The notes under the pieces were generated by a model. That model searched no databases and was not told where the DNA came from. It worked only from the letters and a program-made list of their open reading frames with translations. 64,000 nt of DNA from Warburgia ugandensis. Its lineage: Eukaryota > Streptophyta > Magnoliopsida > Canellales > Canellaceae. The translations under genes and the position numbers were made by a program. Shown in pieces: positions 11,824 through 61,598 of this stretch. Each line of letters begins with the position of its first letter. Position 1 is the first letter of the stretch. The stretch covers positions 19,484,990 to 19,548,989 of the forward strand of contig CP141139.1 in assembly GCA_035236585.1 (NCBI GenBank), written 5' to 3'.

Positions 11824-12652
11824 GTGAAATTGAAGAATCAACCAAAATTATTGCATAGGAGGTTGGGACATATCCCATTTTCTAGATTAAAAGGTATATT
11901 TGATGCTTTGATTGGAAATAAAAGCCTTTCCCCATGCAATGCATGTCACAAGGTTAAACAAACTCAATTGTCATTTCCTAGTAGTAGAAATAAAAGAAGA
12001 AAGTTACTTGAATTAGTCCACGTTGATATTTGGGGACCCTATGAGACTAACACACACTCCGAAGCCCACTATTTTTTTACTATTATTGATGATTGTTCGA
12101 GAGGTACTTGGGTTCATTTAATGAAAAATAAAAGTGAAGTCCCATTACTATTTGAACAATTCTTGAAAATGGTGCAAACTCAATTTGGTGCAAAGGGGAA
12201 ATCAATTTAGTTATATAATGCTCAAGAGATGGTGCATGGGAATTACAAGATGCTCATTAGGAAGTATACACCAAACCAGCTGTCTACACACACCCCAACA
12301 AAATGGGGTGGTAGAAAGAAAGCATAGGCACCTATTGGAGGTTGCAAGAGCACTTCGATTTCAAGCTAATCTACCCTTAAAATTTTGGGGAGAATGTGTA
12401 ATGATAGCAACACATTTGGTAAATCTTCTTCCTACACCAATACTTAATGGGAAATCCCCATATGAGATTTTATTTAGAGGAAAATCCTCATATGATCATC
12501 TTAGAGTATTTGGATGTTTGTGTTATGCTTATGTTAAACCTAAGCTCACTGATAAGTTTTCTACGAGATCTAGAAAGTGTGTTTTTCTAGGATATATCAC
12601 AGGAAAGAAGGGTTATAGGGTAATGGAACTCAATACTAGAAATTTTTTCTAA
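11824..12652 (+). pseudogene. Copia GAG-pre-integrase and integrase, frameshifted
   Basis: Two overlapping frames (11824-12210 and 12185-12652) give the pre-integrase zinc-binding block (LLHRRLGH...PCNACHKVKQ) and the DDE core. VHVDIWGP provides the first Asp and HTPQQNGVVERKHRHL the Glu. The middle Asp region falls at the frameshift near 12190 and is lost. KCVFLGY marks the end of the domain. The TRIM inserted 58 bp downstream, at 12711, separates integrase from reverse transcriptase. Confidence 0.88.
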
Positions 12653-12710
12653 TCTCAAGATGTCATATTTTATGAGGATTATTTTCCTTTAAAAAGTGTA
12701 CAACCTTTGG

Positions 12711-12957
12711 TCTAACACCCCGAGGTTCCAACAGTCACAATATTGTCTGCTTTGGGGCGCCCATACACCCCTTACGGTTTTGATCTTCCCTAGTTTCCTA
12801 GGAAAAACGCATTGTGACCGTTAGAGTTTCCCAAACTCTTATAAAGAGCCCAGTTTCCTCTCCCCAGGCAATGTGGGACTAACTCTCTGTCCCTCACCCT
12901 AACCTAGAAGCCTCTCAGCCTTCTCTTTGCCTGCCCTCATTGGCCCAGGGCTTCACA
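12711..12957 (-). repeat. TRIM1 3' LTR
   Basis: This 247-bp LTR reads TGTGAAGCC... on the minus strand. It aligns with 13061-13227 plus 16582-16671 and with the inverted 16331-16576, sharing AGTCCCACAT-type and GAGGCTTCTAGG words. Confidence 0.9.
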
Positions 12958-13227
12958 TCTTCCCCCCCTTAGGGAACATGCGTCCCCGTGTGATAGCCAC
13001 GACCAGGCGCTCTCGTGCGGCTAGCACTACACCACGAAGGGAACCAGCTCTGATACCACTTGTAACAGCCCGAGGGCCGACACCTTGCAATGATATTGTC
13101 CGTGTCAGCAGATTGGGGCTCATACCACCCAGCCCACCCACGGTTTTGTTCTTCCCCTCGAAGGGGAAAAGGCCTCGTTGCAAGGGAAGTCCTCATCACT
13201 CTTATCAAGAGCCTAGTAACTTTCCCC

Positions 13228-16224
13228 TGTAATATCCTTAATTTTAAAGATAAAAATAGGAAATTATTAAATAAATTAAAATAAAAATTTATGGATGAAA
13301 TTCTTTCCTGAAAACATAATAATTAGAAAGTGCTCGTCGATACGAATCCAACGCCACCAAGAACGCGAAAAACGGAGCTCAAACAAGGGAGTTATGAGCC
13401 GTCAAAGTTGTAAGGGCAAAATGGTCTTTTGACAGAAACGTGTTACATAGGGGTCCAAATTGATAACGGCACCCCTGTCTACACACGTCTCTACCAGTCC
13501 GGCGAAATCGCCGGAGAGACGTGGGAAGATACGTGTGGGGAAGAGTTTCTCTTCCCCAAGACTCTAAAACCCTATATCTATGCTCCTCTAGGAGCCAAAA
13601 CGCTCCACTTTGAGCGTTTTCCATGAATGCTACGCAAAACCCTAGACCTGCAAAAATCTGAAGTTTCTGGCGAGTGGAGCCCCGGTAACACGAGCAAACT
13701 CGACCAGGCACAAGGTAAGCCTCAAATCCGTGTTTTTTCTGTATTTATTAATTAGAAAATTAATTAGGAAAGTATTTAAAAATTAGGAAAAAAATCAGAT
13801 TTTTAGGAACCTGTGTGCACGCTACTGTTGGAGTGTGATTTCATAGACCAAACGTTGTCCGTTTGGAAATCGCACCGTCCAACTAGTGAAAAAGACACCC
13901 AAGAGCAAACCCTTTAAATTTGGGAGTGATCCAACGGTGGAATTGCCCAGAAAACTCAAAAACCAGTACCTAGGGAGGTTTTTAGGAACTTGGGAAAAAT
14001 CGTTTAAAAACCATGGTTTTTGAGAAAATTAGTGAAAAAGGAGGGCATAAATGGATTCTAGAGAGAATTCTGAAGAAAATGGCGCAAAAATCACGCAAAA
14101 CGGAGCTCTGTAACTCCACCGGAGACGACCGAAATCCGGCTGTCTTCTCCGACGTCGTCAACGGTGTCGGCGCCTTGGCGCTGACGCCAGGACGCACTCC
14201 ATGACGCCCGAGGGACGACGTCATGTGACGTCATCGTCGCATGCGTGCTCGGCGCCGCGCGCGTGCGGGACGGCCTCGGTGGGCTATCGCGGTGGGACCG
14301 GGACGCGGCGCGTGCGTCACGGTGCCGAAGACGCGCGGCGCGCGTCCCGTGCGGCGTCTGCGACGCCGTGCGTCTTCGTGCGCCAGAGTACGCCGGTGTA
14401 AACCGGCGGAAAAGAGGCGCCACCGGTTTAAACCACCTTATGGTGGTCCGGTAGGCCCCATTTGAGGGTAGTTTTCACTAAAACTTGATTTTTGGGAGCT
14501 AGAGAGGTCCAAATCACGATCCGAAAGAGGCGTTGTGACCGTATTGACGACGCGGACCTAGTTTTAACTTAAAAACTTAGAAATGACCACTTTTTATTTA
14601 GAAAAATTTTAAAATAGTGATGTGACATGTACAGGTGCACTTGAATATACCAATTAAAGGGAGTTATTAGCAAGCTAGTGATCTCACACTGAGGTAGGTG
14701 ACGACAACTAATGTTTTGCCTTGATTTTTAAACCATGTTTAAACATAGCATCATGTGTGATTGTGTTTTAAAATGCAATTATTACTTACCGTGGATTTCA
14801 TGCTACATTGCGTACAGGATGGTTATTCCAAATTGAAATCTTTTACTGAATAAACTTATTTCAAATGCTTTTACAAGTATGATGTTAATTTGTTATGCTT
14901 ACTTAGAGACTTATTTCTTATTATATATATAGAAAATGCATGGATTTACATGGAAATGAGAATAGAGGCTTATTAGCTGGTCCTTTGATAGGCTAACCCC
15001 AGGATGAGGGGCATGTCTTGGGGATTGCAAGCTATAAGTGCTCTTGAGTTTTAGCATATACATATGATTTCCGTGTTTTATATTTGATGACGGGTGCTCT
15101 CGCCCGGTGGGCGTCATGCTAGGAGGGATAGGGCCGGCCACCCACCTTTCCGAGATTATGATGTGATGAGTTTGTGATATGATAGACACCTGCCCATAGA
15201 TGGCATTCGGTAGGGGTTTGGTAACATGGATAGTCCACACTACCGGTCTGAGCCTTTCCATGGGGACAGACGCTAAGTCTCCCGTTATGGTGTCGACGGG
15301 GAGCGGCGGTGGGTGATACCCATGGAGGGTTGCCACCGGCGGCATGATGGCCCATATTCTTATTATGTGTGCATGTATGATGAGCATGGTTATTGATGAT
15401 ATGCCTGGGTGTGACGACACTCAGAGGTTGACTACGTGTACTCCTGATCAGGGATGTTAGTGCGATGTGGTGGGACCCATTACCTTAGGGTGCCCTTATT
15501 CTGGATGTATGCTCCATTTTATTGATTCATGTCATGTTTTAACTCCGTGAATTTCATGTTTTAGCATATGGAATAAATTGGCATTTATTGAACATGGCAT
15601 TATGATATCACTATCTTCATAAATGTTAGATTTTTCATCAGTATTGTTCATTATTTCTTGCATTTATTACATTAATTGTCTATGTACCTACACAAGCGAT
15701 AGCTTCTTTGAGGCATTGCTTTGTTTTGCAATGCCTTAGATCTCGAGCGCGATAACAGAAAGGCAAGGCTGTTGAGAAGCCGTGAGAGCTGTCAAGACCA
15801 TTTTTCTATAGTATTAGACAGTGATGTGAGTCATTAAACAGGATTATCATTTGTATTTTTATTATGGACTGCATATTTTATATTGGGATGTGATTTAGAT
15901 CTTTGGACATATGTTGGACATTTATATGGGATGTTATGATGGATAGACCCTGGGCCATATTATTATTGTCTTTTGAACGTTTATTTGATTTAAAATAAAG
16001 GCGCCTATTTATTTGACGTTGATTTATACGCGGATTATTTATTTATGTTTAAATTACATGTACGCCATTTTGTGAAAGGAAAATTAACACCCGGAGTTTT
16101 TAAGATAGGTATAGTAAAATGTTAAATAAATCTTTTCTCATGGGATCCCAAATGCTCTTATTTAAAATGCCATTATTATATATATATATATATATAAATT
16201 GTCTTAAAAATCCGGGGTGTTACA
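13228..16224 (+). repeat. Large (about 3 kb) LTR, Tekay/Del-like family
   Basis: It begins TGTAATATCCTTAATTTT and ends AAATCCGGGGTGTTACA, directly before AG plus the primer site, which fixes its sense as plus. It aligns along its length with the inverse of 58719-61598, including GTGCTCGTCGATACGA near the start and a conserved block at about 14950-15500. It differs in a GC-rich, CpG-dense stretch at 14130-14420. Open frames inside are not conserved between the two copies. Family assignment rests on LTR length and general similarity to chromovirus LTRs and is an inference. Confidence 0.85.
14217..14234. promoter_or_regulatory. Paired TGACGTCA-type (as-1/CRE-like) motifs in the large LTR
   Basis: GACGTCAT at 14217-14224 and TGACGTCAT at 14226-14234 are adjacent palindromic ACGT-core sites of the type bound by plant bZIP/TGA factors. 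They lie about 1 kb into the LTR, where U3 enhancers would be expected. The solo copy at 58719-61598 has a different sequence at this place. Function is inferred only. Confidence 0.4.
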
Positions 16225-16330
16225 AGTGGTATCAGAGCCAGACCCTGACCCGGTGTGGGTGGCTAGCCGCACGTGGGCGCTTGTGTGTGGTAAGACACGC
16301 GGGGACGCGTGTCCCCTAAGGGGGAGAGGT

Positions 16331-16576
16331 TGTGAAGCCTTGGCCGATGAGGGAGGGCCAAGAGGGCTGACAGGCTTCTAGGCAAGGTGAAAGACTGAGA
16401 GTTAGTCCCACATCGCTAGGGGGAAAGTTACTGGGCTCTTGATAAGAGTGATGAGGACTTTCCTTGCAACGAGGCCTTTTCCCTGGGCAACTGGGGAAGA
16501 ACAAAATCGTGCGGGGTGTATGGGCACTTCGGCACGGACAATATCGTTGCAGGGTGTGGGCCCTCGGGCTGTTACA
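16331..16576 (+). repeat. TRIM LTR at the 3' end of the mixed element
   Basis: This 246-bp LTR reads TGTGAAGCCTTGG...GGGCTGTTACA. It is the sense-strand counterpart of the two TRIM1 LTRs, with the purine tract immediately upstream and the TCCCC TSD immediately downstream. Confidence 0.92.
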
Positions 16577-17040
16577 TCCCCCTACCTATGGAGGACTAAC
16601 TCTCAATCCCTCTCCTTGCCTAGAAGCCTGCCAGCCCTCATCAGCCTGCCCTCATCGGCCAAGGCTTCACATTTGGAAAGTGTACAGGTGCAACCATTGT
16701 TGAGTGTGATTAAACCTGAAGAGTCAACACATACTCAAAGCCAATATGGAGATGTAGAAGACTCAATTGGGTTAAAGGAAAATGAAGAAACAGAAGAAGA
16801 AGGCATGGAAGAATCTAATATTGAAATAAAAAAATGAGGCAATTGAAAGAGAAGTGATAGTTGAGGGCTCAAGACCATAACGGTAAAGAAGGATGCCACA
16901 AAGATTTGAAGATTATGTAATGTCATGCAAGAACATTATAAACCCCCTACCAAGTCTACCATTCCAATCAACCAATTGCATGGTAAGGTATCAAAATACT
17001 CATTCCTTCATAAAATCTTGCAGTATCCTCTACTAACAAT

Positions 17041-17967
17041 GCAGGACTAGAAGAAATCGACGTTGAACCAAATACCTGTGAAAATGATTTCAGAAAACTA
17101 GTGTGGAAAGAAGCAATGAATCAAGAGTTGAAAGCTCTCAATTCAAATAACACATGGAATCTAGTTCCCTTACCAAAAGGAAAAAGGACAATTGGAAGCA
17201 AATGGGTATTCAAGATAAAACAAAGAGTAGATGGAATGATTGAGAGGTACAAAGCACGGCTAATTGCAAAGGGATATAGTCAAACTACTTGACTATAATG
17301 AAAATTTTGCTCTCTCTGCTAAATTCACCACAATTAGCAACTTGTTGGCTATTTTAGCAATTAAAGGATGGAAACTACACCAAATGGACATAGACAATGC
17401 ATTTTTACATGGGAACTGGATGAGGAAGTATTTATGAAGGCTCCTCAAGGTATGAAAATCCCTAATGATTCACTAGTTTATAAATTGCATAAGTCCTTGT
17501 ATGGACTCAAATAAGCACCACGATAATGGTTCAGAAAATTCTCCACTTCTCTTCTCAACTATGGGTTTAAGTAAAGTCCATGAGATCGCTCACTATTCAT
17601 ACTTTCAGATGGGGATAGTTTCTTGGTAGTATTAATCTACGTGGATGACCTTATATTTGTTGGGAACAACAGAGATAAATGTACTCAATTTAAGAAATAT
17701 TTTCATACTTGTTTCAAAATAAAGGACCTAGGACCCTTGCATTATTTCTTGGGGTTAGAGGTTAGAAGAAGTCAAGATGGTATTTATGTAAACCAGCAAA
17801 AATATGCAAGAGATATTATAAGAGAAGCAGGTCTAGAAGATGCAAAGGTAGTACAAATAACTATTCCACAACAACACAATCTATCCAATGAGATAGGGGA
17901 CTTACTCGAAGATATGACTACATATCGAAGACTTGTGGGGAGACTCATCTATTTGACAGTGGGCTGA
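17041..17967 (+). pseudogene. Copia reverse transcriptase remnant
   Basis: WKEAMNQELKALNSNNTW and GSKWVFKIK (17101-17292) mark the start of the copia RT domain. The active-site block is LIYVDDLIFVGNN (about 17630-17665), where the catalytic YVDD is intact. LGPLHYFLGLEV follows. A stop follows QTT at 17292, and the stretch 17293-17622 is frameshifted. The region 16677-17040 between the TRIM and RT is the variable spacer between integrase and RT. Confidence 0.9.
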
Positions 17968-50604: not shown

Positions 50605-50873
50605 TCCGACATGATCGAAATTGGCACACCATGCAGACTCACTATTTCCTTGATGTATAATTTGGCCAAGCTCTCTAGTGATTGCTTTTGCCGTATTGGA
50701 AGAAAATGAGCTGACTTGGTCAACCGATTCACAATAATCCACATCATATCATGTCCACTAGAAGTTCTAGGCAACCCAACCATAAAATCCATGGTTATGT
50801 GATCCCATTTCCACTTTGGAAGCTCCAAAGTTTGCAGCAAACCAACTGGCCTCTAGTGTTCTGCTTTCACTTT
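50605..50873 (-). pseudogene. Tekay-like integrase fragment
   Basis: WKWDHITMDFMVGLPRTSSGHD holds the first catalytic Asp. VNRLTKSAHFLP and LHGVPISIMS follow. The next residues should contain the second Asp, but the sequence changes to Athila gag at that point. A stop lies between this piece and the zinc-binding part (HLGGMKMY...CVVRCLTC) at about 50875-50960. Confidence 0.88.
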
Positions 50874-51605
50874 CTAACAAGTGAGGCAACGCACAACACA
50901 CTCTCCAATATCCCACTTCATTCCTAGCCACCAGAAGTTCCTTTTTAAATCCTGATACATCTTCATACCACCTAGGTGTGTGGTAAACTTGGAATCATGC
51001 ACTTCCTTCAACAATTCCTCTTTCAACTCTGAATTTATTGGTACAACAAGTCTCCCATGAAATCTCACACTACCATCAGTCCCTTTATGAAACTCTTTCT
51101 TTTCACTTAAGGTTTGAGTCTCCTCGCACAACTGTTGTGCTTGCAAAACTTGACTCAAGAAAGATGACCTAATGGAGATATTGGCAATTATCCCTTTTGA
51201 TTTTCTGCTAAGTGAGTCCGCAACTACATTAGCTTTGCCCGGATGATATTGGATAATAAAGTCAAAATCTTTGAGGTACTCAACCCAATGTCTTTGTCTC
51301 ATGTTGAGATCACTTTGAGAGAAAATATATTTAAGGCTTTTGTGGTCCGTAAACACTTCAAATTTCTCTCCATATAAGTAGTGTCTCCATATCTTCAAGA
51401 CAAAAACTACAGCGGCAAGTTCTAGGTCATGCAAGGGATAGTTCTGGTCATGATTTTTCAATTGTCTGGATGCATAAGCAATTACCTTGCCATTCTGCAT
51501 AAGTACACATCCAAGTCCCTTTCCAAAAGCATCACTATACACAACGAATCCTCCATGCCCTTCAGGCAAAGACAAAATAGGTGCAGAAGTGAGTCTTTCC
51601 TTCAA
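50874..51605 (-). pseudogene. Tekay-like RNase H and integrase zinc-binding region
   Basis: The frame is open for 243 codons. [22 protein letters not shown] and the Asp of [10 protein letters not shown] are RNase H motifs. [15 protein letters not shown] marks its end, and the H-H-C-C block begins with [10 protein letters not shown]. This is the best preserved part of the element. Confidence 0.9.
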
Positions 51606-52521
51606 CTCCTCTCATAGTCATCTGTCCACAAGAATTTTTGCTCCTTCTTGGTCAATCTCATCAATGGTTGTGCAATATGGGAGAAACCTTTGAAAAAATG
51701 TTGATAGTATCCAGCCAAACTAAGAAAACTGCGTATCTTGGTCGCGGTCTTTGGTTTTTCCCTGTCTGTAATTGCTTCGATCTTCTTAGGATCAACTGTA
51801 ACACCATCCTTAGATATAACATGACCAAGAAATTGAACATGTTCCAACCAAAACTCACACTTTGAGAATTTGGCATATAATTGGTGAGTTTGAAGAGTGT
51901 CTAACATGATCCTCAGGTTCTCTTTATGATCTTCCCCACTATTGGAGTAAATAAGGATGTCATCAACAAAGACAATAAAAAATTTGTCAAGATATTCTCT
52001 AAACACTTTGTTCATCAAGTCCATAAATGCTGCAGGTGCATTTGTCAACCCAAATGGCATCACCAAAAATTCATAATGTCCATAGCGTGTTCGAAATGCA
52101 GTCATAGGAACATCTTCATCTCGAATTCTAAGTTGATGATAGCTTGATCTTAAATCAATCTTAGAGAATACTTTTGCTGATTGAAGTTGATCAAATAGGT
52201 CATCAATATGGGGTAATGGATACTTGTTCTTCACGGTGGCCCCATTTAATAGTTTGTAATCAATGCATAATCGCATAGAGCCATCCTTCTTCTTCACGAA
52301 CAAAATCGGAGCTCCCCATGGTGACACACTTGGCGAATAAACCCTTGGTCCAATAGTTCCTGCAACTGGACCGTCAACTCCTTTAATTCTGTAGGGGCCA
52401 TGATATACGGTGCCTTAGAAATAGGGGATGTTCCAGGTAACAATTCGATGGTGAACTCCATCTCCCGCCTTGGAGGCAATCCAGGTAATTCTTCAGGAAA
52501 GACTTTCTTAAAATCACGCAC
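51602..52521 (-). pseudogene. Tekay-like reverse transcriptase
   Basis: [20 protein letters not shown] (52294-52521) precedes the RT proper (51602-52327): [50 protein letters not shown] and the catalytic FVDDILIYS with both Asp. Two overlapping frames show one frameshift near 52310. Confidence 0.92.
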
Positions 52522-54164
52522 CAGCTCTATTTCCTCAATTTGAGGCCCTGTACTTTCCTAAGCCACAATAGTAGCTAAGTATGCCTGACATCCTTTAGAC
52601 ATTAGACGCGTTGCTTGTATAGCAGAGATTATGCTGACACCTGATGTGTCCAGTTGTCCTTGAAATACAAAGGACTCCCCCTTTGAGCTCATCAGTGTCA
52701 CTCATTTCTTTGTGCAATCTGCCAGGGCCCCATGTTCTGCCAACCAGTCCATGCCCAAAATGACGTCAAAATCAGTCATACTCAATAGGATTAAGTCGAC
52801 ACTAAGTTCTTTGCCTGAAATCACTACCGGTACTTCTCGTAAGAACTCTCATGAGACGACTATTTCACCCATTGCAGTACAAACTTCTAGACAAAATCCC
52901 AATTTATGTATAATAATATCCATACACGATGCAAAGTCACATAAAATGAATGAATGAGTAGAAACAGGATCAATCAAAATACGCGCATGCTTGTCAAATA
53001 TTAACAATGTACCTTCCACTACAGCATTAGATGTGCAAGCCTGGTCGGTAGTCAACGCAAAAGCTCTCCCCTGACTCATGGGTATCTGTTCTACTCTGGC
53101 ACCTAAATCTGTCTGATGCGGTCTCTTACGGCAATCCTTTGCCATGTGCCCATGTTCACCACAGTTAAAACATCTCTGATCACGATAATAACACATCGTG
53201 CCCTTGTGGAATCTATTGCAACAAGGACATGGTTTGAAGTCCCTTTTTCTGTCTGGGTGATAACATTGTCCTTTCTGGGGTTTTTGAGGTCCTAAAGAGA
53301 AACTTGAGCTCTTCCTTTCCCCATGGTATCCTCTGCTGCCACCGTGCCAAAACCTTCCTTTTTCCTTGCCTTTCGTGGTAGTTTGCATCTTCACCTTTTC
53401 CTCCTGAGCAATGGAAGCCATCTCCACTGCCTTAGCCACACTAGAAGGCTGTATCATTCGAACCTTACTTCTCAATCTATGGTTCAACCCTTCCACAAAC
53501 ATCCAAGTTGCTTTTTCCTCTATCGTGCACACATCTGGCATGATTCTCCTAAATTGAGTGAATTTATCTTCAAATTCGAGAACGGTCATGGTTCCTTGCT
53601 TGAATGCTAGGAATTCTTGCTCTTTCTTTGCCTTAATGTGGGGAGGAAAGTATTTGTTGTAGAAAAAATTCTTGAATTCCTCCCAAGGAACATCACCTCG
53701 GTCCTCGAAAAATGTTCTCCTTGCAGACAGCCACCAAAAAGAAGTTGATCCTGTCAAAACAAATGTTGCCACCTTCACCTTCCGATCATCTAGAATATTC
53801 ATAGCCTCAAATATCTTCTCTATCTCATGTATCCATCTCTCTGCAGCTTCTGGCTCACTATTGCCAGTAAATACAGGCCAATCTTCTTAAACCTCTCTAG
53901 CAGGTTATCCACCTTAGTCTTATCCCTGCCCGAACTTCCCTCACCAGTATGAGGTACAAACGAGGTCTAAGGCTGTGCTTGGGGTGGTTGTTGCTGCTGT
54001 TGCTACTGTTGTTGCAGTTGTAGTTGCATCTGTTGTTGCTGCTGCATCAGTTGACTAAGGTTTTGCATCATATTGGCCATGAAGTCCGTCATTTGACTCC
54101 CCTGGTCAGACAGCTCAGCAGAGAGGTTTGTTGTCCTCTGACTCGTCCTCTTAGGTGGCATCAT
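52522..54164 (-). pseudogene. gag: Tekay-like gag and protease
   Basis: Gag probably starts at 54164 or 54161 (MPPKRTSQRTT), followed by a Gln-rich run at about 53980-54050 broken by a TAG. The capsid domain is in frame 52849-53802 (FWWLSARRTFFEDRG, FNKYFPP-like YNKYFPPHIK, FVEGLNHRLRSKV). The CCHC knuckle CFNCGEHGHMAKDC is intact. The protease site reads ILIDPVSTHSFI, with Val where a Gly belongs in the catalytic loop. Confidence 0.9.
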
Positions 54165-58718: not shown

Positions 58719-61598
58719 TGTAACACCCCAGATTTTTAAGACATTTTTTTTATAATAATAATGGCATTTTGAATAAGAGAATTTGGGATCCCATGAGAAA
58801 AGTTTTATTTAACCATTTGCTAAAACATATCTTAAAACTCTGGGTGTTATTTTTCCTTTCTCAAAATGGCATACATGTAAATTAAACATAAATAAAACAA
58901 TCCGTGTATAAATCAATGTCAAATAAATTAACGCCTTTATTTTAAATCAAATAAATGTCCAAAACACAATAATAATATAGCACAGGGTCTATCCATCATA
59001 ACATCCCATATAAATGTCCAACATATGTCCAAACATCTAAATCACATCCAAATATAAAGTATGCAGGCCATAATAAAATCCAATTGATAATCCTGTTTTA
59101 ATGACTCACATCACTGTCTAAAACTATAGGAAAAATAGTCTTCAGCAGCTCTCACGGTTTCTCAACAGCTTTTCCTTTCCTGGTGTCGCGCTCGAGATCC
59201 AAGGCATTGCAAAACAAAGCAATGCCTCAGCAAGCTATCGCTTGTGTAGGTACATAGACAATAATGTAATAAATGAAAGAAATAATGAACAACTCTGATG
59301 AAAAGTCTAACATTTACGAAAATAGTGATATCATAATGCCATGTTCAAATAAATGTCAATTTATTCCATATGCTTAAAACATGCATTTCACGGAGTAAAA
59401 AACATGACATAAATCAATGTAAATGAGCATACAATAATAATATGGGCACCCTAAGGTAGTGGGTCCCACCACATCGCACTAACATCACCGATCAGGAGTA
59501 CTCATAGCCAACCTCTGAGTGTCCTCACACCCATGCATACCATCCATAACCATGCTCATCATACATGCACACATAATAAGAATATGGGCCATCATGCTTC
59601 AGTGGCAACCCTCCATGGGTATCAACCACCGTCGCTCTCCGTCGACACCATAACGGGAGACTTAGTGTCTGTCCCCATGGAAAGGCTCAGACCGGTAGTG
59701 TGGACTATCCATGTTACCAAACCCCTACCAAATGCCATCTATGGGTAGGTGTCTATCATATCACAATATCATCACATCACAATCTTGGAGGGTGGGTGGC
59801 TAGCCCTATCCCTCCTAGCATGACGTCCATCGAGTGAGAGCACCCGTCATCAAATATAAATACAAAAATCATATGTATATGCTAAAACTCAAGAGCACTC
59901 ATAGCTTGCAATCCCCAAGACATGCCTCTCATCTTGGGGTTAGCCTATAAAAGGACTAGCTAATAAGCCTCTATTCTTATTTCTATGTAAATCCATGCAT
60001 TTACATGATATAATAATCAATAAGTCTCTATTTAATCATAATTAATTAATATCATGCTTATAAACATATTTGAAATAAGTTTATTCAATAAAAGATTTCA
60101 ATTTGGAATAATCATAATGTACTCAAAGTCGCATGAAATCCACGCTAAATGATAATTGCAATTTAAAACACAATCACACATGATGCTATGTTTAAACATG
60201 GTTTAAAAATCAAGGCAAAGCATTAATTGTCATCACCTACCTCAGTGTGAGACCACTAGCTTGCTAATAACTCCCTTTAACTAGTATATTCAAGTACACC
60301 TGTACATGTCACATCACTATTTAAAAAAAATTTTAAATAAAAAGTAGTCATTTATAAGTTTTTAAGTTAAAACTAGGTCTGCGTCGTCAATACGGTCACA
60401 ACATATCTTTCGGACGTGATTTGGACTCCTCTAGCTCCTAAAAATTAATTTTAAGTGAAAATACTTCATAAATTAATATTTATTAATTTATAGGGTGTTG
60501 GGCGGGTGCACTGGTTTACATTGGCGGCCCTGCTTTACACCAAGTTACACCGGCGCCCAGTGTACACTGGGTTACACCGGCGGCCCTCGGTTTACACTGG
60601 GTTACACCGGCACCCAGTTTACACTGGGTTACACGGGTAGCCCGGTTTACACTAACGACGCGGAAACTGGCGCCTGAGAAGACGACCGGCTTCGGGTCAT
60701 CTCCGGTGACCCTACAGGTGTCCAAATCACTTGGTTTTTGAGCCATTTTGCTCAAAATTTTGTCTAGTTTCCATTTATATCATCTTTTTGCATTGATTTC
60801 TCCCAAAATCATGTTTTTTAAATAGTTTTTCCGAAGTTCCTAAAAACATCCCTAGGTACTAATTTTTGAGTTTTTTGGAGAAACCCATCGTTGGATCTCT
60901 TCCAAATTTAAAGGGTTTGTTTGTCGGTCTCTTGTACACTAGTTGGACGGCGCGATTTCCAAACAGATAAGGTTTGATTAGTGAAATCACGCTCCAACAG
61001 TAACATGCACACAGTTCCCAAAAAAATCTGATTTTTTTCCTAATTTTTAAATGCTTTCCTAATTATTTTTCTATTTAATAAATACAGAAAAACAAAGTTT
61101 TGAGGCTTACCTTGCGCCTGGCCAGGGTTGCTCTTGTTGTTGGGGTTCCACTTGCCAGAAAACTCAGACCTTGCAAGGCTAGGGTTCTGAGTTAAAAACC
61201 CCAAAGGAACGCTCAAAGTGGAGCGTTTTGGCTCTTGAGGATGGTTAGATATAGGGTTTAGAGTCTTGGGGAATAGAAACTCTTCCCCACACATCTCTTC
61301 CCATGTCTCTCCGGCAATTTTTCCGGCACTGGTAGAAACATGTGGAAGACAGGGGTGTTGTTATCAATTTGGACCCCTGTGTAACACGTCTTTGTCAAAA
61401 GACCAAAATGCCCTTACGACTTCGACGGTTCATAACTCCCTCGTTTGAGCTCCGTTTTTTGCGTTATTGGTGGCGTTGGACTCGTATCGATGAGCACTTT
61501 CTAATTATTATGTTTTCAGGAAAAATTTCCATATATAAATTTTTATTTTTATTTATTTAATAATTTCCTATTTTATACTAAAAATTAAGGATATTACA
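58719..61598 (-). mobile_element. Solo LTR of the 3-kb LTR family
   Basis: It is 2880 bp, reading TGTAACACCCCAG...GGATATTACA on the plus strand, the inverse of 13228-16224. A 5-bp TSD, TTTAT, lies at 58714-58718 and 61599-61603, and joining the flanks restores repeat R. No primer site, purine tract or second LTR is present, so the interior was removed by recombination between the LTRs. A minisatellite at 60495-60655 replaces the GC-rich block of the other copy. Confidence 0.93.
60495..60655. repeat. GTTACACCGGC/GTTTACACTGG minisatellite in the solo LTR
   Basis: Roughly five imperfect units of 25-30 bp alternate GGGTTACACCGGC with CCCAGTTTACACTG. The copy at 13228-16224 keeps only one related word, CGCCGGTGTAAACC near 14390. 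Confidence 0.8.

Follow-up and report, generated by a model that had tools for sequence, protein, structure and literature searches.

Introduction

The closest described systems are template-switching complexes, in which several LTRs and interiors with like outer LTRs are inserted as a unit with one 5-bp TSD, and for which template switching between co-packaged RNAs has been proposed (Sabot and Schulman 2007, PMC1950507). The RNAs in those complexes belong to one family and the switch lies between R regions, whereas the elements described here combine families with unrelated LTRs and switch in a patch formed by the LTR end and the primer site. Tandem LTR retrotransposons of rice and other plants also show LTRs and interiors alternating within TSDs; according to the accessible part of that report they are arrays of like units, unlike the present elements, in which unlike LTRs mark each joint, and their origin by recombination or by retrotransposition is left open (PMC11899658, 2025). 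Tandemly arrayed TRIMs (Gao et al. 2016, PMC4717578) and Cassandra arrays (PMC7215508) include T-I-T-I-T chains (T, TRIM LTR; I, TRIM interior) and an inverted double TRIM with TSDs, which resemble parts of our elements S12, S15 and E9, but in the available excerpts of both papers the chains are without a chromovirus LTR or interior. For Onsen, recombination in transposition bursts has likewise been tied to reverse transcription between co-active elements, although the portion of the source at hand concerns related partners and products that keep two like LTRs, unlike here (PMC5668417). As far as the accessible text of these sources goes, the known complex and tandem systems join like with like, and the present case represents a heterologous variation on both template-switch elements and tandem LTR elements. 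LTR swapping in soybean (said to have been described by Du et al. in 2010) is reportedly also an RT-linked recombination, between related autonomous and non-autonomous partners whose products keep two like LTRs. A full-text literature search covering titles and abstracts, with most subscription journals outside it, turned up no description of a single insertion that carries two LTRs unrelated to each other.

Here, we analysed an insertion of this kind in Warburgia ugandensis. It lies in a stretch of 64,000 nucleotides of contig CP141139.1, hereafter the window, and joins parts of a chromovirus, whose normal form is L-G-L (L, LTR; G, interior), to parts of a TRIM, whose normal form is T-I-T.

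Results

One insertion bounded by two unrelated LTRs

Positions 13228-16576 of the window were read directly as a single insertion, with the chromovirus LTR on the left and the TRIM interior and TRIM LTR on the right. The features of the window are as follows (E1-E6 are mosaic elements listed below).

12711-13227, minus strand: first part of an older inverted TRIM hit by the insertion (blast, flank alignment); own TSD TTTGG at 12706-12710
13223-13227, no strand: left TSD, TCCCC (read directly; empty-site alignment)
13228-16224, plus strand: L, complete Ty3/gypsy chromovirus LTR, 2,997 bases (direct reading, blast; L copies at both ends of E1-E6; solo copy with its own TSD)
16225-16330, plus strand: I, 106 bases, comprising spacer ag, primer site and TRIM interior (read directly; copies in 20/20 fetched loci)
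16331-16576, plus strand: T, complete TRIM LTR, 246 bases (direct reading, comparison with other elements)
16577-16581, no strand: right TSD, TCCCC (read directly; empty-site alignment)
16577-16671, minus strand: second part of the older inverted TRIM (blast, flank alignment); TSD TTTGG at 16672-16676
58719-61598, minus strand: solo L, another copy of the 3-kb LTR (blast); TSD ATAAA

In the inserted copy, L starts with TGTAATATCC and ends with GGGGTGTTACA, and T starts with TGTGAAGCC and ends with CTGTTACA. Between them, I holds a 13-base primer site (PBS), TGGTATCAGAGCC, at 16227-16239 and closes with the purine tract aagggggagaggt at 16318-16330. L is a genuine LTR, as it recurs in the window as the solo copy with TSD ATAAA and bounds both ends of elements elsewhere. 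Matches between L and T were limited to 9-12 bases (E 3.7), one of them being the common terminus; the insertion thus lacks the two alike end LTRs of a normal LTR retrotransposon. It also differs from a TRIM, which has the form T-I-T with short alike LTRs, a PBS, a PPT and a noncoding interior, in that the right half is of this kind and the left end is L. With the template-switching complexes (PMC1950507) the window copy shares the TSD, but its ends are unlike and it has neither a third, internal LTR nor two cores.

When the flanks were joined and one TCCCC copy was removed, they aligned to T across the breakpoint, with no gap at that point, within a resident TRIM at 12711-16671. The target of the insertion was an LTR of this inverted TRIM, and because the flanks restore an uninterrupted TRIM LTR in a resident element with its own TSD, the hybrid entered as one unit, leaving a matching 5-bp TSD and a clean empty site. 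Random 5-mers in the window agree by chance with a probability of 0.0017. These results bear out a preliminary description made from the letters alone, according to which one TSD brackets a single unit with a complete 3-kb LTR at the left end, a 246-bp TRIM LTR unrelated to it at the right end and a TRIM interior between; its claim that the hybrid formed before integration is also supported. The same description had allowed that the TCCCC repeat might be chance and the left LTR a separate insertion. A TRIM beside a separate solo L was rejected, as no TSD lies between them, the outer flanks match and the empty site is restored.

The sequence surrounding the resident TRIM (12600-12705 and 16677-17401 of the window) resembles an older Copia element, judged by eye.

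The parent families have common LTR ends and a common primer site

In mosaic elements E4 and E9, the G adjoining L contained Retrotrans_gag, zinc knuckle, RVP_2, RVT_1, RNase H and Integrase_H2C2 domains above the Pfam cut-offs, with rve and Chromo just below theirs (27.8 bits against a cut-off of 32.6, and 24.0 against 25.1, respectively). From this predicted domain set, the source of L is a Ty3/gypsy chromovirus, with gag, protease, RT and RNase H followed by integrase, and with a chromodomain. The TRIM interior, at 106 bases, is too short for any gene. Both families have 5-bp TSDs and the LTR end TGTTACA, so that one integrase could take the ends of both. We take the primer for the site of both families to be the initiator tRNA-Met. 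According to the part of the Cassandra report available, the Cassandra primer-site string is identical to the present PBS (PMC7215508).

Separate T-I-T copies are present in the host genome. The I-T of the window was 98-99% alike to several T-I-T places without L, and its T was at most 98% alike to the hybrids read. The parent junction L-G was found in 40/40 scored places, among the matches listed, and exact L-G junctions occurred 372 times in the host genome, compared to 0 in a reversed control. Exact L-G runs 6.6-7.6 kb apart, located by position only (C1:58652340-58672322, C2:74432048-74447310 and C3:10280197-10295312), suggest same-family tandem arrays, L-G-L-G-L. Within the window, 50605-52546 (minus strand) is a distant, 68% relative of the chromovirus interior.

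Hybrid junctions recur in the host genome

The host genome searched comprised 1.12 Gb in 14 contigs. With a 577-base query across the L end, I and T, the arrangement of the window was recovered at other places; L was followed by I and T in 20/20 fetched places, which fall in 18 elements, and further surroundings were read for ten elements (E1-E10). The preliminary description had asked for a genome search for the junction of L with the TRIM interior: all 40 scored places spanned it, one of them reaching only base 177 of 226 of the query. With the window included, the L-I junction is thus present at at least 40 places on 10/14 contigs, and with at least 18 mosaics carrying matched TSDs the treatment of this locus as a single case no longer stands. 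T joined to the chromovirus interior (T-G) was found in 37 of 40 scored places, among the matches listed, the other three being without T; an I-T-G query found at least 5 places that hold all three and at least 14 that hold T-G without I directly before T. A one-off freak event was rejected, the same junctions being found at many loci with their own TSDs.

A T variant with an extra ~100 bases was seen in L-I-T junctions at C5:25328311-25329014, C5:16559633-16560337 and C4:57021070-57021788.

Matching 5-bp TSDs flanked 18 of the 19 mosaic insertions for which both ends were read, compared to 0.0017 expected per pair by chance. The 19 insertions are as follows.

Short L-I-T: window copy, TSD TCCCC; S09, ACAAA; S21, GGTCT; S25, ATTTA; S28, GTAAT
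Short L-I-T without matching TSD: S13, flanks CTCTG and CACAC in a microsatellite
L-I-T-I-T: S15, TSD AAAAG
E1: L-I-T-T-G-L, ends L/L, TSD TCTAG
E2: L-I-T-G-L-I-T-G-L, ends L/L, TSD CTAGT
E4: L-I-T-G-L, ends L/L, TSD TATTG
E5: three times L-I-T-T-G, then L, ends L/L, TSD AGTAC
E6: L-I-T-T-G-L, ends L/L, TSD ATATC
E7: T-G-L-I-T, ends T/T, TSD ACTTT
E9: T-G-L-I-T-T-I-T, ends T/T, TSD CCAAT
S26: T-G-L-I-T-I-T with a deletion, ends T/T, TSD ACCAG
C6:23390695: T-G-L-I-T from its T-G joint and length, middle unread, ends T/T, TSD GGTAG
E8: long, ends L/T, inverted piece of T after the first L, TSD CAAGC
E10: C1:88600502-88605138 (locus L039), inverted T on the left, T on the right, TSD TCTAG
S12: locus L012, inverted T on the left, T on the right, TSD ATAGT

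E3 (L-I-T-T-G-L) was left outside this count because its 3' end is cut. The left TSD of the C6 element was used to predict its right end, which lay 8,263 bases further along, on the correct strand and within the size of T-G-L-I-T; the pattern of LTR end plus GGTAG occurs at 9 places in the genome and also at 9 in the reversed control. The mosaics of the E1-E6 style have the features of template-switching complexes, but with unlike units.

At the places read, T comes after I and L comes after G, and after each of the two LTRs stands the primer site of its own family or of the other. The mosaics are chains of the units I-T and G-L linked at the primer site, giving L-I-T, L-I-T-I-T, L-I-T-G-L, T-G-L-I-T and others. 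The orders I-T and G-L would be expected were each unit, primer site through LTR end, copied from one RNA. Departures were T-T joints in E1, E3, E5, E6, E8 and E9 and one L-T joint; the T-T joints (loci L010, L016, L017, L022, L023, L024) and the L-T joint (L045) hold remnants of spacer or primer site (gt, agt, agtgt, agtggt, agttgt) and resemble cDNA ends that became joined, or else small deletions. E10 and S12, with their inverted T, look like products of cDNA self-integration or end-to-end joining.

Spacers at the joints

A patch made up of TGTTACA, 2-4 spacer bases and the 13-base PBS is alike in both families, so the switch can be placed within the patch but not exactly at the boundary of LTR and PBS. 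The preliminary description had set the switch exactly at the boundary of LTR and primer site; its place within the common patch is supported, its exact position is not. The normal L-G spacer was AAGT in 7/7 junctions with letters shown and four bases long in 93 of 100 listed exact junctions (five were one base shorter, one two shorter and one one longer), and the T-I spacer was AG in 7/7. Among 19 L-I joints, the spacer was AAGT in 10, AAG in 6, AAAG in 1 and AG in 2 (the window copy and E3), and was therefore L-type or partly so in 17/19; the T-G joints, counted by element (n = 9), had AG in 2, AGT in 5 and AAGT in 2. These counts indicate that most switches occurred in the spacer or the primer site. 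The TRIM-type spacer of the window copy and E3 points to an earlier switch, within the common TGTTACA, unless the spacer changed later.

LTR similarity within and between mosaics

Every L copy of E1-E6 had its closest L within its own element. The outermost L pairs of these elements were 97.5, 98.2, 97.9, 96.9, 98.4 and 94.6% alike, respectively, and the best identity of L between elements reached 96.7%; the margin for E6 was slight, its outer L copies being 94.6% alike to each other and 94.4% to E9. The two L copies of E8, which has unlike ends, were 95.0% alike and were not nearest to each other. Among the elements bounded by T, the outer copies were identical in E9 (inner T 95.5-97.6% alike to outer), the T copies of E7 were 99.6% alike, and the outer T copies of S26 were 98.8% alike and 95.9-96.3% alike to its inner T, although each was closer to some T of other elements (99.2%). 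Most same-ended mosaics have like outer LTRs, as a normal second strand transfer gives when all that lies between is treated as interior.

On a tree of 30 L copies, the minimum number of changes called for by the supported branches was 4 (L...L), 5 (short L-I-T) and 3 (T...T), so the structure types are intermixed as judged from these branches. L...L was clustered (3/500 shuffles as low), to which near-copies within one element contribute, and short L-I-T and T...T were unclustered (241/500 and 500/500 shuffles as low). Across 19 units, L and I-T distances were unlinked (r 0.04, p 0.28; r -0.02, p 0.58 without two short L copies). As a control, the last 360 L columns showed linkage with the remainder of L (r 0.45, p 0.0002); a second control, the middle 360 columns against the 5' half of L, was weak (r 0.14, p 0.07). 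The halves of I-T were uncorrelated (r 0.00, p 0.46), and odd against even I-T columns gave r 0.30 (p 0.0004). This test, which has little power, favours repeated assembly of the hybrids.

Discussion

The best reading of these results is that hybrid cDNAs arose recurrently between co-packaged RNAs and were joined in the common patch of LTR end and primer site. The window copy would be a hybrid cDNA of chromovirus and TRIM, made in a shared particle and inserted once by integrase; we put the probability that the hybrid formed during reverse transcription at roughly 80%. The RNAs of both families would have been co-packaged in one particle, and the joints suggest that the two families use one copying machinery. 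Along a first route, L plus-strand strong-stop DNA (LTR and primer site) would anneal at the primer site of the TRIM minus strand and yield L-I-T directly. This is the plus-strand transfer that the preliminary description had put forward, and it remains a good candidate route to L-I-T, but for this copy it predicts the spacer AAGT and the spacer is the TRIM-type AG. That spacer, unlike the one of the L donor, counts against our reading. The same holds for the unmatched flanks of S13, the slight margin in E6, the unlike ends and non-nearest L copies of E8, the outer T copies of S26, the failure to find T-G-L and the low power of the linkage test. The window L-I-T could stem from a single intermolecular second transfer or from a comparable switch slightly inside the TGTTACA of both LTRs, and we give this direct route or a close variant of it about even odds for the window copy.

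Plus-strand transfer also predicts the reciprocal product T-G-L, which was not found among the few candidates where T precedes G without I (C12:63105008, C6 and C4). The C12 place is L joined to T-G via a cut primer site, and the C4 candidate showed no end downstream and only an opposite-strand match 9 kb upstream. At that match, C4:35591027-35591042 (minus strand) is the end of L followed by TTAAG, 9 kb upstream of a T at C4:35600120 (plus strand) whose left flank is TTAAG; the pattern occurs at 18 places in the genome and 2 in the reversed control, and such nearness is unlikely by chance.

Along a second route, the 3' end of a finished minus strand, a primer-site copy identical to the primer tRNA's end, would prime on RNA of the other family. 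Repetition would build chains, which the usual second transfer would then turn into L-I-T-G-L or T-G-L-I-T; this route probably explains the long mosaics best. A third route would use the second primer site of such an element, so that L-I-T becomes a compound LTR whose solo form would resemble the window copy.

This third route leads to the rival that we regard as possible though doubtful, in which L-I-T is a solo compound LTR: an L-I-T-G-L primed at its second site, after T, would become (L-I-T)-G-(L-I-T), whose two ends, by recombining, would reduce it to a solo L-I-T flanked by a TSD. The same L-I-T would result as from plus-strand transfer, an old junction would make the T-type spacer of the window copy unproblematic, E1-E6 are examples of elements that have two primer sites, and a solo L is present in the window. 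However, L-I-T stood at both ends in none of 10 same-ended or E3-type mosaics (E1-E7, E9, S26 and C6, the middle of C6 being unread). Moreover, the last L of E1, E2, E4, E5 and E6 stops at the TSD without I-T, and a compound L-I-T as the standard LTR of the large family is therefore unsupported. Even under this rival, the hybrid junction would have arisen earlier by reverse transcription.

Recombination between the L copies of a longer, mixed-ended insertion such as L-G-L-I-T could have removed G and left L-I-T. E8, a long insertion bounded by L and T and flanked by TSD CAAGC, is of this mixed-ended type, but it is the sole example and its start is rearranged, and the places read held no clean L-G-L-I-T; we consider this origin improbable. 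Still less credible is chromosomal recombination between separate insertions, for instance neighbouring chromovirus and TRIM copies meeting at the 20-odd bases of the common patch. Both families are numerous and the patch TGTTACA-spacer-PBS is common to them, yet such recombination yields no matching outer TSDs, which 18/19 insertions have, and the window flanks rejoin as an uninterrupted TRIM LTR. Repeats can be misjoined in assembly, but an artefact that placed the L-I junction at at least 40 places on 10/14 contigs, with matching TSDs in 18/19 mosaics, has a negligible chance of being the explanation.

Returning to hybrid cDNAs made in shared particles, a single circle, cut at different points, yields both L-I-T-G-L and T-G-L-I-T as circular permutations, and an element that has two primer sites could therefore change from one to the other. 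It is conceivable, at rather low odds, that a working circle [L-I-T-G] unites the families, having two each of primer sites and polypurine tracts, in which the primer site used in each round would decide the terminal LTR, L-I-T-G-L and T-G-L-I-T would interconvert and L-I-T would be a by-product.

The chromosomal or particle origin of tandem and complex LTR elements is still open in recent work, as far as the accessible text shows (PMC11899658). Because L and T are unrelated, each joint is marked, and the particle route becomes readable from sequence alone. In one large survey, by the part of it available, no retrotransposase-encoding relative was found for 278/289 TRIM subfamilies (PMC4717578). 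The joints described here mark the chromovirus as a likely helper of a TRIM whose LTR is not similar to its own and, if the working circle is true, the TRIM would travel inside its helper's genome, besides travelling in its particle.
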